Assembly (NCBI GenBank): GCA_019358855.1
Contig: JAHHII010000003.1
Location: 124,001-188,000, forward strand
Direction: 5' to 3'
DNA length: 64,000 nucleotides
Source: Timaviella obliquedivisa GSE-PSE-MK23-08B
GTDB lineage: Bacteria > Cyanobacteriota > Cyanobacteriia > Elainellales > Elainellaceae
How positions within the stretch are numbered: position 1 is the stretch's first letter; the number at the start of each line of letters is the position of its first letter. Shown one piece after another: positions 3,945 to 9,787 of the stretch. Under the pieces are notes generated by a model. That model was given only the letters and a program-made list of their open reading frames with translations, was not told where the DNA came from and did not search any database. A program made the position numbers and the translations under genes.

Positions 3945-4220
3945 ATGGCAGTTAAAGTTCTCGTTCCAACTCCCCTTCAAAAGCTAACCCAAGACCAAGC
4001 TACCCTAGAGTGCGAAGGTAACAGCATTGCCGAGCTAATAGAGTCTCTTGAGCAAAGCTTCCCTGGTATCAAAGCGCGTCTTTGTGATGAACAAGGTCAG
4101 TTGCGTCGTTTCATCAACTTCTATGTCAACAGCGAAGATATTCGCTTTTTAGAAGGTCAAAACACTCCTCTCACCACAGGGGACGAAGTAAGTATTGTTC
4201 CCGCAGTGGCGGGCGGCTGA
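3945..4220 (+). CDS. MoaD/ThiS-family ubiquitin-like sulfur carrier protein
   Basis: A 91-residue beta-grasp protein ending in the diglycine that MoaD, ThiS and CysO proteins use for adenylation and thiocarboxylate formation ([10 protein letters not shown] at the C-terminus). The middle contains the usual [14 protein letters not shown] and the [11 protein letters not shown] strand-turn-strand. It is longer than typical MoaD or ThiS (65-80 residues) and closer to CysO/90-residue carriers. It lies directly after thrC. In Mycobacterium CysO feeds sulfur to a PLP enzyme for cysteine synthesis, and in Wolinella a similar carrier feeds homocysteine synthesis. A link to the ThrC-type PLP enzyme here is inference only. 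No activating enzyme (MoeB/ThiF) is in the window. Confidence 0.88.
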
Positions 4221-4319: not shown

Positions 4320-5966
4320 CTATTCTCTAACTTCGCTCCCAGTCTCACCAGTTTCGTAGGCAGGCACTTGAAAGCGAGCATCATCTCTTTTAGATTGACT
4401 CGGTTGGTAGGAAAATAAAGGCATCTTCAGCCTTAGAAAAATTGCAATTACCCGTGTCACAAACGAGCCTGCAATAATGACCATAACTGCCTTGAAAATT
4501 TCGTCGGGGTAATAGTTTAACTGGCTAGAATACCAAATAATAAACATTGAGAAAATGAAACCCCAAATAATTGCAATGATTGGGTAAAAAGAGCCCTTGA
4601 GTGATGGATTATTTGGATCGGCTCTCACCATATCGCGGATAATGCCACCGCCAGCGCTGGTGATGGCTGCAAAAATAGGCCCCCATAACCAAAGCGGAGA
4701 ACTTTGAGTTTCGAGGGCTACAATCACCCCAATAATCGACAGTGTAGATAGACCCAACGTATCTAAAAGTTCAATCACTGCATTGAATGTCTTGGCACTG
4801 AGTGAAGGCGTGTTGCTTTGAACCTGAGAAGTGTTTTTCCTGATCTTATCGTTCCAAAAACCGATTAATTGAATCAGCACGTATCCTACCAAAACTGTAA
4901 TAATCACCGCCATCATATAAGTGGGCGCTTTCATTAAGCCTAGTGTAGTTCGTCCGGCAATCATATCCCGCAACACTCCCCCGCCAACTCCGGGCAAAGC
5001 CGCCAACACCAAAGCCCCAAAGAGATCGTAGCCTTCGCGGTTTGCCATTACTAGCCCTGAAACTGCAAACGAAATTACTCCAGTTAGTTCTACAAAGAAG
5101 TACCATTTTTGTCCTGTAGTAAAGCCTAACAAGACTGGGAATAAATATTGCTGAACTAGCTTATTGTATTGACCGTTATCTTTCAATTTCGTAATGCTGG
5201 CATTAAACTGCTCAACTAGCTCAGGTGTAACTTGCTTGGATTTTTTACTGAAAAGAATGTAGTAAGGGAGTTCGCTAATGCGAAGAGGATACTCTTCGGC
5301 AATATCTTGGAACTGCTGCTTGTAGGAAATGTCTGCACCGACAATTTGATCAATGAGAAACCCATCAACCTGCTTACGAGCAAGCAAATTAAAAAGCTCT
5401 GCATCGGTTTCAGCTTTAACAATTTTGCTTTCATTATCGGAATCTTTAATATAGGCATCAATCTCCTTCTGACCGTAAGAGTATCCGTCTACAACGCCAA
5501 GACGAAAAGATTTCTCGTGAAACATCTTCAGTACATCGGCAGCATTCTTTAAGCTATATTGCTCTGACGCTCCTTGAGGAACAAAAAGTACATTAACAGA
5601 CCTCCGAAACTCTTTGGAGTAATAGCCAAAAGCCTCTCTTTCTGGTCGCTTTGAAGCTGAGATAATGATGTCTTTCTTTCCTTTTTTAAGATCATCCAAT
5701 AGCTTGTTCCAGCTAGTTTCACCTTCATACAAAACACTGTAACCAATGTTAGAGAACGCTAAGTTTGCTAAGCGAGTATCTAGCCCGTTGACTGACTTTG
5801 TTCCCCCACTTTCTTCTTCATAAATGAAGGGTCGCCAACCGTAAGATGCTGTTTTTAGAGTTGAATGATGATCGACTTGAGCAACAGCAGGGTGTGCCCC
5901 TAAAATACAAATTAAACTCCAAGTGGCGATCGCCAGCCACACCAACCATTTTTTCTGTACCCGCAT
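4320..5966 (-). CDS. Fusion of a periplasmic solute-binding domain with a TRIC-type cation channel
   Basis: A 548-residue protein with three parts. Residues 1-29 are a signal peptide (hydrophobic WLAIATWSLICILGAHPAVAQ). Residues about 36-275 are a type 3 solute-binding domain, the class that binds amino acids, including a KRPEREAFGYYSKEF stretch equivalent to the ligand-carboxylate arginine region. Residues about 285-515 are a TRIC/UPF0126 channel with both diagnostic repeats, GGGVLRDMI (about 328) and GGGIIRDMV (about 440), and about seven membrane helices. Bacterial TRIC proteins are normally about 200 residues with no ligand domain. TRIC proteins have an external N-terminus, which suits a periplasmic receptor domain. 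It is transcribed alone, divergent from the EctC-like gene, and ends at a shared terminator. Family membership of both halves is clear; gating by a bound ligand is inference. Confidence 0.92.
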   Translation of the reverse strand: MRVQKKWLVWLAIATWSLICILGAHPAVAQVDHHSTLKTASYGWRPFIYEEESGGTKSVNGLDTRLANLAFSNIGYSVLYEGETSWNKLLDDLKKGKKDIIISASKRPEREAFGYYSKEFRRSVNVLFVPQGASEQYSLKNAADVLKMFHEKSFRLGVVDGYSYGQKEIDAYIKDSDNESKIVKAETDAELFNLLARKQVDGFLIDQIVGADISYKQQFQDIAEEYPLRISELPYYILFSKKSKQVTPELVEQFNASITKLKDNGQYNKLVQQYLFPVLLGFTTGQKWYFFVELTGVISFAVSGLVMANREGYDLFGALVLAALPGVGGGVLRDMIAGRTTLGLMKAPTYMMAVIITVLVGYVLIQLIGFWNDKIRKNTSQVQSNTPSLSAKTFNAVIELLDTLGLSTLSIIGVIVALETQSSPLWLWGPIFAAITSAGGGIIRDMVRADPNNPSLKGSFYPIIAIIWGFIFSMFIIWYSSQLNYYPDEIFKAVMVIIAGSFVTRVIAIFLRLKMPLFSYQPSQSKRDDARFQVPAYETGETGSEVRE

Positions 5967-6295: not shown

Positions 6296-6670
6296 ATGAT
6301 CTATACAAATTTAGAAGATGTAGTTGGCAGCGAACGTGATGTTGCTTGGGGAAACGGTCAAAGTCGCCGTTTTCTAGTTGAACAAGACGGAATGGGATAC
6401 TCCTTAACCGATACCGTTATTAACGCTGGCACAGAATCTTTGCTGGAATATAAGAACCATATGGAGACTTGTTACTGCATTGAAGGCGAAGGCGAAGTCG
6501 AAACGAACGGTGTTGTTTACTCCATTAAGCCTGGTTCAATGTACGCACTGAACCGAAACGACAAACATTATTTGCGTGCCAAAACAACGATGCGCTTGGT
6601 CTGTGTATTCAACCCACCTCTCAAAGGCTACGAATCCCACAGCCTTACAGGACAAGCATCCTGCTACTAG
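6296..6670 (+). CDS. Ectoine-synthase-like cupin (EctC family), without ectA/ectB
   Basis: A 124-residue cupin very like ectoine synthase: CIEGEGEVE, IKPGSMYAL and ND-KHYLRA match the family in order. The residues that correspond to the iron ligands of characterised EctC enzymes (Glu57, Tyr83 and His91 by my count here) are kept. EctC closes N-gamma-acetyl-diaminobutyrate into ectoine, but EctA and EctB are absent from the window. Instead the next gene is a PP-loop ATPase 41 bases on. Orphan EctC proteins are known elsewhere. The substrate here could be an imported ectoine precursor or a different molecule. AGGGAAG precedes the ATG. The protein family is secure; the reaction is not. Confidence 0.85.
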   Translation: MIYTNLEDVVGSERDVAWGNGQSRRFLVEQDGMGYSLTDTVINAGTESLLEYKNHMETCYCIEGEGEVETNGVVYSIKPGSMYALNRNDKHYLRAKTTMRLVCVFNPPLKGYESHSLTGQASCY

Positions 6671-6711
6671 TTCTTTCCTAATTTCAACAGCTATCGCCCT
6701 TGTCTGTGCCT

Positions 6712-8193
6712 ATGTCGGACGAGGGCTATCCTTTCCCGCTATTTAACATTTTAGAAATGCTAATCACCGATCGCCCAATGTCTACTAGTTCGCAGGTTGC
6801 CAGCCCCCAGCCAGTTTTTTCTTCCGTGGATGATCCATCCCAGTCGGCACTAACAGTCCGTGTTAATGCTCTAGAAGTGTATAGGCATCATCTTGAAATT
6901 TCCTACCAAATTGGACAATGCGCTTTCACAACCAAAGTTTTTTATCATGATGTGGATCTTGAAGCCCTAGCGGTACGGTATTCTGCTCAGTTTATGCGTC
7001 AGGTTTATTGCCACATTGCTTTGGTAGAAGGACTGAAGTATTGCTCTGTTTTTCCCGAAATTTATGATGTAACGGCGATCGCCGATGGCTTATCTGTGGC
7101 TTCTCTAGAGTTCTTTAGCCGTACTTACAACGCAGCATACACCCAGAACAAATACGAAAATCAAATCAGTAACTATAATGGACCTCTTCTCTACTTTGAA
7201 TCTATTTTAGGAACGCTACAACCCATCACGTTTAAAGGCAATAATCCCACTGTCTTAACTGGAAATGGCGGCGGTAAAGATAGCTTTCTCTCTATGAAAA
7301 TACTAGAAGAGGCAACCATTCCTTTTGCCGCATTTCAATGGGCGCGGTCAGAGTATGGTCGCTTTGAATATCAGCATGACCTCAGCGCTAAAATTTATCA
7401 GCATGTTCAACCCCAAACGGTTCATCGCGTCTCTATCCATGATGACTTTACCGATGGCGTTTACATGCAACTCTACTTCCCCCACCTCAAGCCACCCTTT
7501 ACCCTCGGTACGCCAGAATGTATTTTTGCGGCGCTGCCAATTTTGCTAGATCAAGAATATTGCTACCTATCGTTTGGTAATGAAAAGAGTTCTGATACTG
7601 GCAATTTTTACTGGGCTGAGCTAGGGCAAGAGGTTAACCATCAGTGGATTAAAACCTATGAAGCAGAGTGTATTTTTGAAGCCTTCGTCCGAGAGCATTT
7701 CATTACAAACCACCAATATTTCAGCTTGCTCAAGCCTCTTTACGATTATCGAATTTTCAAAAATCTAGCTCGTTATCCTCAAGCATTGCCCGACCTCCAC
7801 TCTTGCAACATTGACAAACCTTGGTGCAAAAAGTGCGCTAAATGCGCCTATGTTTGGCTTAACTACCTGGCAAACTTTGACACCTCAGTCATTAATGCTT
7901 TGTTTCACACCAACCCCTTCGACTCTTCAGACCTGCATCTTTATTATCGCCAAATGCTAGGGCTAGAAGAGCATAATGCGTTTGAATGTGTAGGTCATAT
8001 TCATGAGTCTAGAATTGCGATGCAGAAGTGCGCGCAGAAGGGGCTTACGGGTAAAGTGATGGCAATGTTTGAAACAGATGTGCAGGCTCAGGTATTGCAA
8101 AATTGGGAAGAACTTGAGCAAAAGTATGATCAGGTTTATTCAGAACATAATATTCCTGATCATATTTTTGAACGGGTTAAGGCTTTCTTGTAG
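6712..8193 (+). CDS. PP-loop (GGGKDS) ATPase superfamily protein, possibly MurL-like
   Basis: About 493 residues. The motif LTGNGGGKDSFLSMKIL (about residues 185-200) is the pyrophosphate loop of N-type/PP-ATPases, which activate substrates as adenylates. A cysteine cluster follows near the C-terminal third (C-N-I-D-KPWCKKCAKCAYVW), as in some metal-binding members. The layout, an N-terminal domain then a GGGKDS domain, recalls MurL, the ATP-dependent UDP-MurNAc-L-Ala-L-Glu epimerase of Xanthomonas, but I cannot confirm that without alignment. Starts at TTG 6700, ATG 6712, ATG 6757 and ATG 6778 are all possible; none has a clear ribosome site. It follows the EctC-like gene on the same strand, which suggests an operon and a joint pathway. 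Confidence 0.75.
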   Translation: MSDEGYPFPLFNILEMLITDRPMSTSSQVASPQPVFSSVDDPSQSALTVRVNALEVYRHHLEISYQIGQCAFTTKVFYHDVDLEALAVRYSAQFMRQVYCHIALVEGLKYCSVFPEIYDVTAIADGLSVASLEFFSRTYNAAYTQNKYENQISNYNGPLLYFESILGTLQPITFKGNNPTVLTGNGGGKDSFLSMKILEEATIPFAAFQWARSEYGRFEYQHDLSAKIYQHVQPQTVHRVSIHDDFTDGVYMQLYFPHLKPPFTLGTPECIFAALPILLDQEYCYLSFGNEKSSDTGNFYWAELGQEVNHQWIKTYEAECIFEAFVREHFITNHQYFSLLKPLYDYRIFKNLARYPQALPDLHSCNIDKPWCKKCAKCAYVWLNYLANFDTSVINALFHTNPFDSSDLHLYYRQMLGLEEHNAFECVGHIHESRIAMQKCAQKGLTGKVMAMFETDVQAQVLQNWEELEQKYDQVYSEHNIPDHIFERVKAFL

Positions 8194-8383: not shown

Positions 8384-9787
8384 ATGGTTTCTATCCGTAC
8401 TGTAGTCCCCATTATTATTTCTGCACAAATTGCGCTTGCGGTTGGTTTAACAGGATTGATCTCGTACATCAATGGGCAAAAGGCAGTGAACGACGTTGCC
8501 TCTCAGTTGCGCGCACAGTTGGCAATTCGCATTGATAGCCATGTGAGTGCGTATTTGGTGACTCCCCAGTTAGTATTGGGCACGATGGCAAACCAGTTTA
8601 AGTTAGGTCTGTTGTCGCCTCAAAATGTCATGGAACCCAGTAACCTTCGCCAGGTGGAACGTTACTTAGGACAACAAAGCTATTTATTTGATTCAGTTAG
8701 CTATCTTCTAGTTGCCAACGAGCAAGGCGACTACGTAGGCATTGAAAAATCCGATCAAGGAAAACGCACGATCGATTTGGCAGACAGTGGCGGAGCCTTT
8801 AGAACCTATGGAATTGGCAATGAGGGAAGTCATGCTCAACTGATTAAACAGGCAGGTCAGTATGATCCGCGCGATCGCCCCTACTATAAAACAGCCGTAA
8901 AAACAGGCAAACAAAGCTGGACTGAAGTTTACAACGCCTTTGGTTACGAAAACCGTCCTACCATCACGGCTTCCCAGCCTATCTATCGTCAGCTTAGTAA
9001 CGGACAGAAAGGTGAACTATTGGGAGTTGTTGGAGTAGACCTCATTCTCTCGCAGATTAGTCAATTTCTAAGCGAGTTAGAAATTAGCAAGTCGGGGATG
9101 GCATTTATTATCGAGCCTTCGGGACAGTTAGTGGCAACCTCAACTGGGGAACCGGTTATTACCCAAGATGCTAGTAAAAAAAATCATCGGGTGATGGCAA
9201 CCAATAGCAAAACTGCCTTAATTCGAGGTACAGCAGAGTATCTTCAGAAGCACTACGGGAGCTTTAAGATCGATCAATCTGCCCAGCTAGTGGATTCTAT
9301 TGGCGGCAAACGAAATTTTGTAGAAGTGCGATCGTTCAAGCAATTTGACTTGCAATGGCTCGTCATAGTCGTTATTCCTGAATCTGATTTTATGGCAAAG
9401 ATTCAAGAAAACTCGCGCACTACCTTTTTGCTATGTTTAGGCTCTTTAGTGGTTGCTTCTATTGTGGGGCTGCTAACTGCCCGCCGCCTCACCCGCCCTA
9501 TTTTGACTCTTAGTTCAGCAGCCACTGCAATTGAAGCCGAAACTTATACACCTGAATTACTAGCAACTGAAATTAAGCGTAAGGATGAATTCGGTCAACT
9601 GGCTCGAATTTTTTATGCAATGGCAGAACAAGTTAGAACGCGATCGGGAGATTTGCGAGATAAAATTCGGCAATTAGAAGTAGAGGTCGATCAGACCAAA
9701 CAAGGATCTACAAATCACGATACAAATGATGCTCTAATGATTCGAGAATTACTAGAAAGAGCCAGAGAAATCCGTCATGGACAATAA
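8384..9787 (+). CDS. Membrane receptor with double Cache and HAMP domains, no output domain
   Basis: 467 residues. A membrane helix at residues 6-28 is followed by a long periplasmic region (about 30-345) with the hallmarks of a double Cache sensor (DPRDRPYYKTAVKTGKQSWTEVY and GVVGVDLILSQISQFL). A second membrane helix lies at about 345-370, then a HAMP domain (RRLTRPILTLSSAATAIEAE to DEFGQLARIFYAMAEQV). After that comes only a short coiled coil ending MIRELLERAREIRHGQ. There is no histidine kinase, cyclase, GGDEF or chemotaxis domain, and the stop is followed by an unrelated gene on the other strand. It may signal through a partner or be a shortened receptor. The start at ATG 8384 directly precedes the first helix. 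Confidence 0.88.
   Translation: MVSIRTVVPIIISAQIALAVGLTGLISYINGQKAVNDVASQLRAQLAIRIDSHVSAYLVTPQLVLGTMANQFKLGLLSPQNVMEPSNLRQVERYLGQQSYLFDSVSYLLVANEQGDYVGIEKSDQGKRTIDLADSGGAFRTYGIGNEGSHAQLIKQAGQYDPRDRPYYKTAVKTGKQSWTEVYNAFGYENRPTITASQPIYRQLSNGQKGELLGVVGVDLILSQISQFLSELEISKSGMAFIIEPSGQLVATSTGEPVITQDASKKNHRVMATNSKTALIRGTAEYLQKHYGSFKIDQSAQLVDSIGGKRNFVEVRSFKQFDLQWLVIVVIPESDFMAKIQENSRTTFLLCLGSLVVASIVGLLTARRLTRPILTLSSAATAIEAETYTPELLATEIKRKDEFGQLARIFYAMAEQVRTRSGDLRDKIRQLEVEVDQTKQGSTNHDTNDALMIRELLERAREIRHGQ

Follow-up and report, generated by a model that had tools for sequence, protein, structure and literature searches.

Introduction

The question raised by this locus is what a bacterial TRIC pore does when a solute-binding protein domain (SBP) is built into the same polypeptide. 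The function of bacterial TRIC/UPF0126 proteins is disputed: in bilayers they are ion channels, whereas in mutant libraries they emerge as genes for glycine use. A natural SBP-TRIC fusion makes it testable, in one purified protein, whether a ligand gates ions or itself passes through. Such a fusion is encoded in the 64-kb stretch of Timaviella DNA analysed here (the window). Our literature search, itself incomplete, found no published description of an SBP-TRIC fusion, and entries with this architecture may already exist in public databases.

A binding domain and a complete TRIC domain in one frame

The gene runs on the minus strand from an ATG at 5966 to a stop that ends at 4320 and encodes 548 aa without an internal stop. 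The original prediction had proposed a signal peptide, a type 3 SBP and a complete TRIC in a single protein, and this layout is confirmed, with the following features.

4320..5966, minus strand: SBP-TRIC fusion gene, with signal peptide (residues ~1-29), SBP (~31-279), TRIC (288-516) and a basic cytoplasmic tail
5127..5870, minus strand: type 3 solute-binding domain, residues 33-280 (about 31-280), from Pfam, structure match and alignment
4419..5105, minus strand: TRIC/UPF0126 domain, residues 288-516, with two GGGxxRD-type repeats, from Pfam, structure match and alignment
5103..5144, minus strand: SBP/TRIC junction, residues 275-288, LFPVLLGFTTGQKW, from model and alignment

In Pfam, SBP_bac_3 matches residues 43-275 (5.6e-14, 52.5 bits against a cut-off of 26.4) and the Gly_transporter/TRIC family PF03458 matches as two repeats from residue 291 (5.9e-25, 87.4 bits against a curated cut-off of 23.5). 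Both of the GGGxxRD-type repeats expected from the earlier reading are there, as GGGVLRD at 328-334 and as GGIIRD ending at 445, after A438-G439, such that the glycine-kink motif GGxxRD is found in both TM2 and TM5. Besides a signal peptide, the hydrophobicity profile contains seven hydrophobic segments in the TRIC part, with the largest basic loops on the cytoplasmic side. From the signal peptide and seven helices the binding domain is predicted to lie outside and the C-terminus inside, in agreement with the periplasmic placement proposed originally.

Prediction of the monomer with AlphaFold2, a check that had been suggested with the initial reading, recovered both folds (mean pLDDT 76.9, alignment of eight sequences), the SBP fold at ~31-279 and the TRIC fold at 288-516. 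In the model a helix at 266-284 is followed by two residues and then by TM1 (287-311), and the C-terminal helix of the SBP thus leads almost straight into TM1. The PDB matches of the fusion by phmmer are solved TRICs and glutamine-type SBPs. When the model was compared with solved structures by VIA-align, the SBP half matched amino-acid SBPs with Z scores of 22-24 (1wdn, 23.1; the Nostoc GluR0 ligand core 2pyy, 22.9; EhuB with ectoine, 2q88, 22.2) and also the AvGluR1 ligand core, and the TRIC half matched solved TRICs with Z scores of ~22-23 (CpTRIC 5wuf, 22.9 over 192 residues, rmsd 2.2). Judged by fold and motif alike, the protein is both a TRIC and a type 3 SBP.

The residues expected to matter in each half are conserved. 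Arg110 and Asp206, the alpha-amino-acid signature, are invariant in 10/10 aligned SBP3 fusions, and Y42, W44, Y162 and Y164 of the binding domain do not vary among these ten either. By alignment to the LAO/GluR0 roles, we take R110 to be the position of the ligand carboxylate and D206 that of the ligand amine. In the pore domain, the cytoplasmic lock D99-R139-D140-Y155 (SaTRIC numbering) is kept as D402, R444, D445 and Y461, and the pore phenylalanine F20 as F300. The position of the other pore phenylalanine, F106 (F104 in SsTRIC), is occupied by Leu409; the pair is typical of TRICs, not strictly defining. Leucine occurs at this position only in the four genomes that carry the enzyme genes described below (the cassette), with phenylalanine in 16/16 stand-alone TRICs and F or Y in the non-cassette fusions. 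In SsTRIC, F104A is a gain-of-function mutation with reduced K/Na selectivity (PMC5401562). Between the end of the SBP and TM1 there are no indels across the ten SBP3 fusions, as would be expected if the binding domain and the pore were mechanically coupled.

Likenesses to known systems

Stand-alone TRICs (CpTRIC 5wuf, SsTRIC 5wtr, E. coli YadS and YicG) share the fold with the fusion over 192-195 residues, together with the GGGxxRD-type motif in both repeats, the seven helices and the gate-lock residues. They differ in being about 210 aa long, in lacking an SBP and in keeping the pore phenylalanine where the fusion has Leu409. That bacterial TRICs are normally single-domain, as had been assumed at the outset, agrees both with the 16 stand-alone proteins compared and with the literature (PMC5477506).

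Among solved structures, the GlnPQ-type ABC importers (6h30, 4kqp) are nearest in sequence to the binding domain, and they too have an SBP and a membrane transporter fused in cis; unlike these, the fusion has a TRIC pore and neither ABC permease nor ATPase. GluR0 and the ionotropic glutamate receptors also carry an external amino-acid domain of the type 3 SBP fold covalently on a membrane pore, but that pore is of an unrelated family, central and shared. In GluR0 the K+ pore interrupts the ligand domain, and there is a single central pore. The SBP of the fusion is contiguous (31-279), N-terminal and joined to TM1, and in a TRIC trimer every protomer has its own pore (PMC5477506). The comparison with GluR0 that was made at first is thus sound for the binding domain, which is akin to the GluR0 ligand core, and loose for the pore arrangement, which differs. 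By architecture the fusion is not a GluR0-type receptor, although it may work like one. Few pores are known to carry an SBP-type ligand domain, and the fusion would extend their number by an unrelated pore.

Fused TRICs in other genomes

A search for this domain order across genomes found homologues of the fusion, at 28-90% identity, in other Leptolyngbyaceae, in Synechococcus/Cyanobium, in a Desulfonema MAG and in two proteobacterial MAGs. The SBP3 fusion was found in 5/386 cyanobacterial genomes, namely its own and four of the Synechococcus/Cyanobium family (33-36%). In its own order, three of 36 genomes carry it (its own; G417, locus L030, 90%; G414, 76%), and where the TRIC region matched elsewhere in this order, it was mostly to stand-alone TRICs in open frames of about 205-300 aa. 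A scan of named genomes with two peptide patterns, which makes the distribution a lower bound, added fusions from the Desulfonema limicola MAG (L031, 57%), the 'Proteobacteria bacterium Glo_12' MAG (41%) and an alphaproteobacterial MAG (30%) that carries a second SBP-TRIC fusion; the loci with the fused frame include L032, L036 and L116. An assembly error at the joint, the doubt attached to the original prediction, is rejected, as the frame is uninterrupted and the same fusion recurs in independent assemblies from several phyla.

None of the nine fusion-bearing genomes searched, several of which are incomplete MAGs, yielded a stand-alone TRIC, and every TRIC match in these nine sits in a frame of >500 aa; the Timaviella genome has no second TRIC besides the fusion. 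A plasmid-borne fusion was not found by tblastn in PLSDB at 1e-10.

A second kind of binding domain, of the NMT1/THI5 type, is joined to TRIC in two Synechococcus genomes, where the fusion overlaps the start of a thiO-like gene (glycine oxidase family, by eye).

L008:367-2157: NMT1/THI5-TRIC fusion, Synechococcus
L027:358-2157: NMT1/THI5-TRIC fusion, Synechococcus

In a tree of the TRIC domain, whose root is unknown and whose long branches limit its reading, the SBP3 and NMT1 fused TRICs share one side of a 100/99 branch, opposite the 16 stand-alone TRICs, which include E. coli YadS and YicG. Four residues, W288, P325, V358 and W428, are present in 13/13 fused TRICs and in 0/16 stand-alone ones, and A438 is present in 12/13 and 0/16, respectively. 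The W428 position is the periplasmic start of TM5, which makes this residue a candidate contact to the binding domain. SBP-fused TRICs form a conserved, previously unnamed pore lineage, in which the binding domain probably controls or feeds its own pore.

Two enzyme genes next to the fusion

Divergent from the fusion gene are two genes for putative enzymes.

6296..6670, plus strand: orphan EctC-like cupin (ectoine synthase family, PF06339), divergent from the fusion
6700..8193, plus strand: MurL-like ATP-dependent enzyme with a GNGGGKDS motif, directly behind the EctC-like gene

The MurL-like protein matches the MurL model over its C-terminal half only and, with 114.6 bits, stays far below the NCBIfam equivalog cut-off of 700. 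The EctC-like protein keeps the Fe ligands and has G for Trp21 and T for Asn38, with a Trp three residues earlier; Trp21 and Asn38 are substrate contacts of EctC (PMC6344544). In the Timaviella genome there is no match to EctA and none to EctB over the equivalog cut-off, which a protein of the control genome G010 exceeds. Given this, and the changed substrate positions of EctC, a genuine ectoine pathway was rejected. With Fe ligands kept and Trp21/Asn38 lost, the protein resembles the orphan EctC class, the role of which is recorded as unknown (PMC6344544, PMC5924519).

The same neighbourhood recurs. The ectC-like, fusion and murL-like genes are also found at L030 and in G414, and in the Desulfonema MAG (L031) they share one strand, with ectC first, then the fusion and then murL, and short gaps between them. 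Identity between the window and this MAG is 58.5% for the fusion, 73.5% for the EctC-like and 60.5% for the MurL-like protein, of which the nearest other cyanobacterial copies are only 45-48% identical. This pattern fits a transfer of the three-gene set as a unit between lineages or, alternatively, a mis-binned MAG contig. Since the same three genes are clustered in the Desulfonema MAG, the two enzymes may make the ligand of the fusion as a small product derived from an amino acid; this link comes from four genomes, three of them from one family. MurL uses ATP, probably for activation of the alpha-carboxylate (PMC8788868), and we infer that the EctC-like and MurL-like enzymes together produce a modified amino acid of small size, which the fusion senses or moves. 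As the fusions at L032, at L036 and in Synechococcus lack EctC and MurL neighbours, a ligand derived from the cassette would not be general.

Elsewhere the two enzymes keep different company. Whereas the Timaviella orphan EctC stands beside SBP-TRIC and a MurL-like gene, the nearest plasmid copies examined are in other, mostly biosynthetic, contexts: in six neighbourhoods they adjoin PKS/NRPS, fatty-acid/Trp-type or other genes, with no TRIC. The MurL-like relatives in other cyanobacteria adjoin DUF427, EgtD-like (by eye) and radical SAM genes, not ectC. The SBP-TRIC cassette gives a first context lead for the orphan EctC enzymes.

EctC-like genes from two other cyanobacterial genomes (L064:7477-7881, L065:7048-7452 and L066:7254-7649) were also observed. 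The first two lie in clusters judged by eye to be PKS-like, which also contain EamA transporter genes and, again by eye, Rieske-type genes, and at L066 an EamA gene is directly upstream of the EctC-like gene. EamA beside EctC-like genes in these two cyanobacteria may be a parallel for a transport partner.

Discussion

Our preferred reading, to which we give a probability of about 0.45, is that the fusion belongs to a distinct TRIC/UPF0126 lineage whose pores always work with a periplasmic binding domain attached, and acts as an SBP-fed solute pore. An amino-acid-type ligand would bind at Arg110/Asp206 of the periplasmic domain, and closure of the cleft would be transmitted by the helix 266-284 straight to the pore-lining TM1. 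In the trimer each binding domain would serve the pore of its own protomer, and the pore would take up or release the captured solute, as a facilitator. In the cassette lineage the EctC-like and MurL-like enzymes could make or consume this solute, which would then be a small amino acid that is cyclic or modified.

Three observations incline us to a fed pore over a gated cation channel. According to PMC12173739, which cites earlier work, UPF0126 genes matter for the use of glycine in 11 bacteria and have been proposed as glycine transporters. The NMT1-TRIC fusion sits with a thiO-like gene. In E. coli the TRIC gene yadS lies 37 bases behind btuF on the same strand (L117, NC_000913 177001-178462), a periplasmic binding protein gene directly followed by an unfused TRIC. 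We also count in its favour the EctC-like/EamA neighbours and the restriction of Leu409 to the four cassette genomes. Against it, both SaTRIC and SsTRIC, once purified, are permeable to K+ and Na+ (PMC5477506, PMC5401562); the SsTRIC authors considered prokaryotic TRICs more likely to be regulators of membrane potential than metabolite transporters (PMC5401562). The kept lock residues likewise count against it, and a passive pore with a binding domain alone has no concentrating power. On balance, we regard a solute permease fed by the SBP as no less likely than a ligand-gated potassium channel.

The nearest rival is a ligand-gated monovalent cation channel, in which a periplasmic ligand, perhaps osmolyte-like, opens the TRIC pore for K+/Na+ and shifts membrane potential or turgor. 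TRICs have been recorded as K+/Na+ channels in which each protomer has a pore of its own (PMC5477506, PMC5401562); all the lock residues are kept in the fusion, the binding domain matches the GluR0 and AvGluR1 ligand cores, and SsTRIC F104A, at the position of Leu409, is a gain-of-function change. Nevertheless, the glycine phenotype reported for UPF0126 genes speaks against it, an NMT1-type fusion beside a thiO-like gene suits uptake better than electrical signalling, and no voltage or K+ gene context was seen. We therefore treat such a channel as a tentative, though serious, candidate.

The fusions may represent a receptor-coupled TRIC family, in which swappable periplasmic domains (amino-acid or NMT1/THI5 type) would each control their own trimer pore, independently of the glutamate-receptor and Cys-loop plans, and in which the window lineage would sense or move a self-made compound derived from EctC/MurL. 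We offer this generalisation as speculation that might well prove wrong.

Alternatively, the domains may be merely tethered, with a TRIC that works as the stand-alone ones do and an SBP that serves in chemosensing or delivers solute to a different transporter. Reuse of SBPs as sensors is common, and a gene for a Cache-HAMP protein (8384-9787) lies nearby in the cyanobacterial loci. However, the indel-free junction, the fusion-specific residues at the periplasmic mouth and the separate pore lineage imply co-evolution of domain and pore, and there are no adjacent ABC permease genes, all of which makes mere tethering improbable. Finally, a chance or erroneous fusion without function, which its rarity in cyanobacteria (the SBP3 form in five of 386 genomes) might suggest, is refuted by conserved homologues from independent assemblies of several phyla with invariant ligand and gate residues, and we find it scarcely credible.

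Other features near the fusion

Control by a riboswitch was rejected: the 64-kb window gave no Rfam match at the gathering threshold, and an Rfam scan of the related loci returned only tRNAs and one PhotoRC-I element. A defence system was rejected, as the four genes gave no PADLOC match. The dCache and HAMP protein encoded at 8384-9787 on the plus strand, adjoining the MurL-like gene, has no output domain by Pfam; its gene adjoins that of the MurL-like enzyme in L030 and G414 too and is absent from L031. At 3945-4220 on the plus strand, directly behind a threonine synthase gene (by eye), is a gene for a ThiS/MoaD-family protein of 91 aa with a GG end. In the Desulfonema MAG, a gene on the plus strand (L031:19-2715), cut by the contig end and two genes upstream of SBP-TRIC with the EctC-like gene between them, joins a Peripla_BP_6/ANF-receptor-type binding domain to an MscS channel domain (PF00924, 1.1e-14) in one protein.
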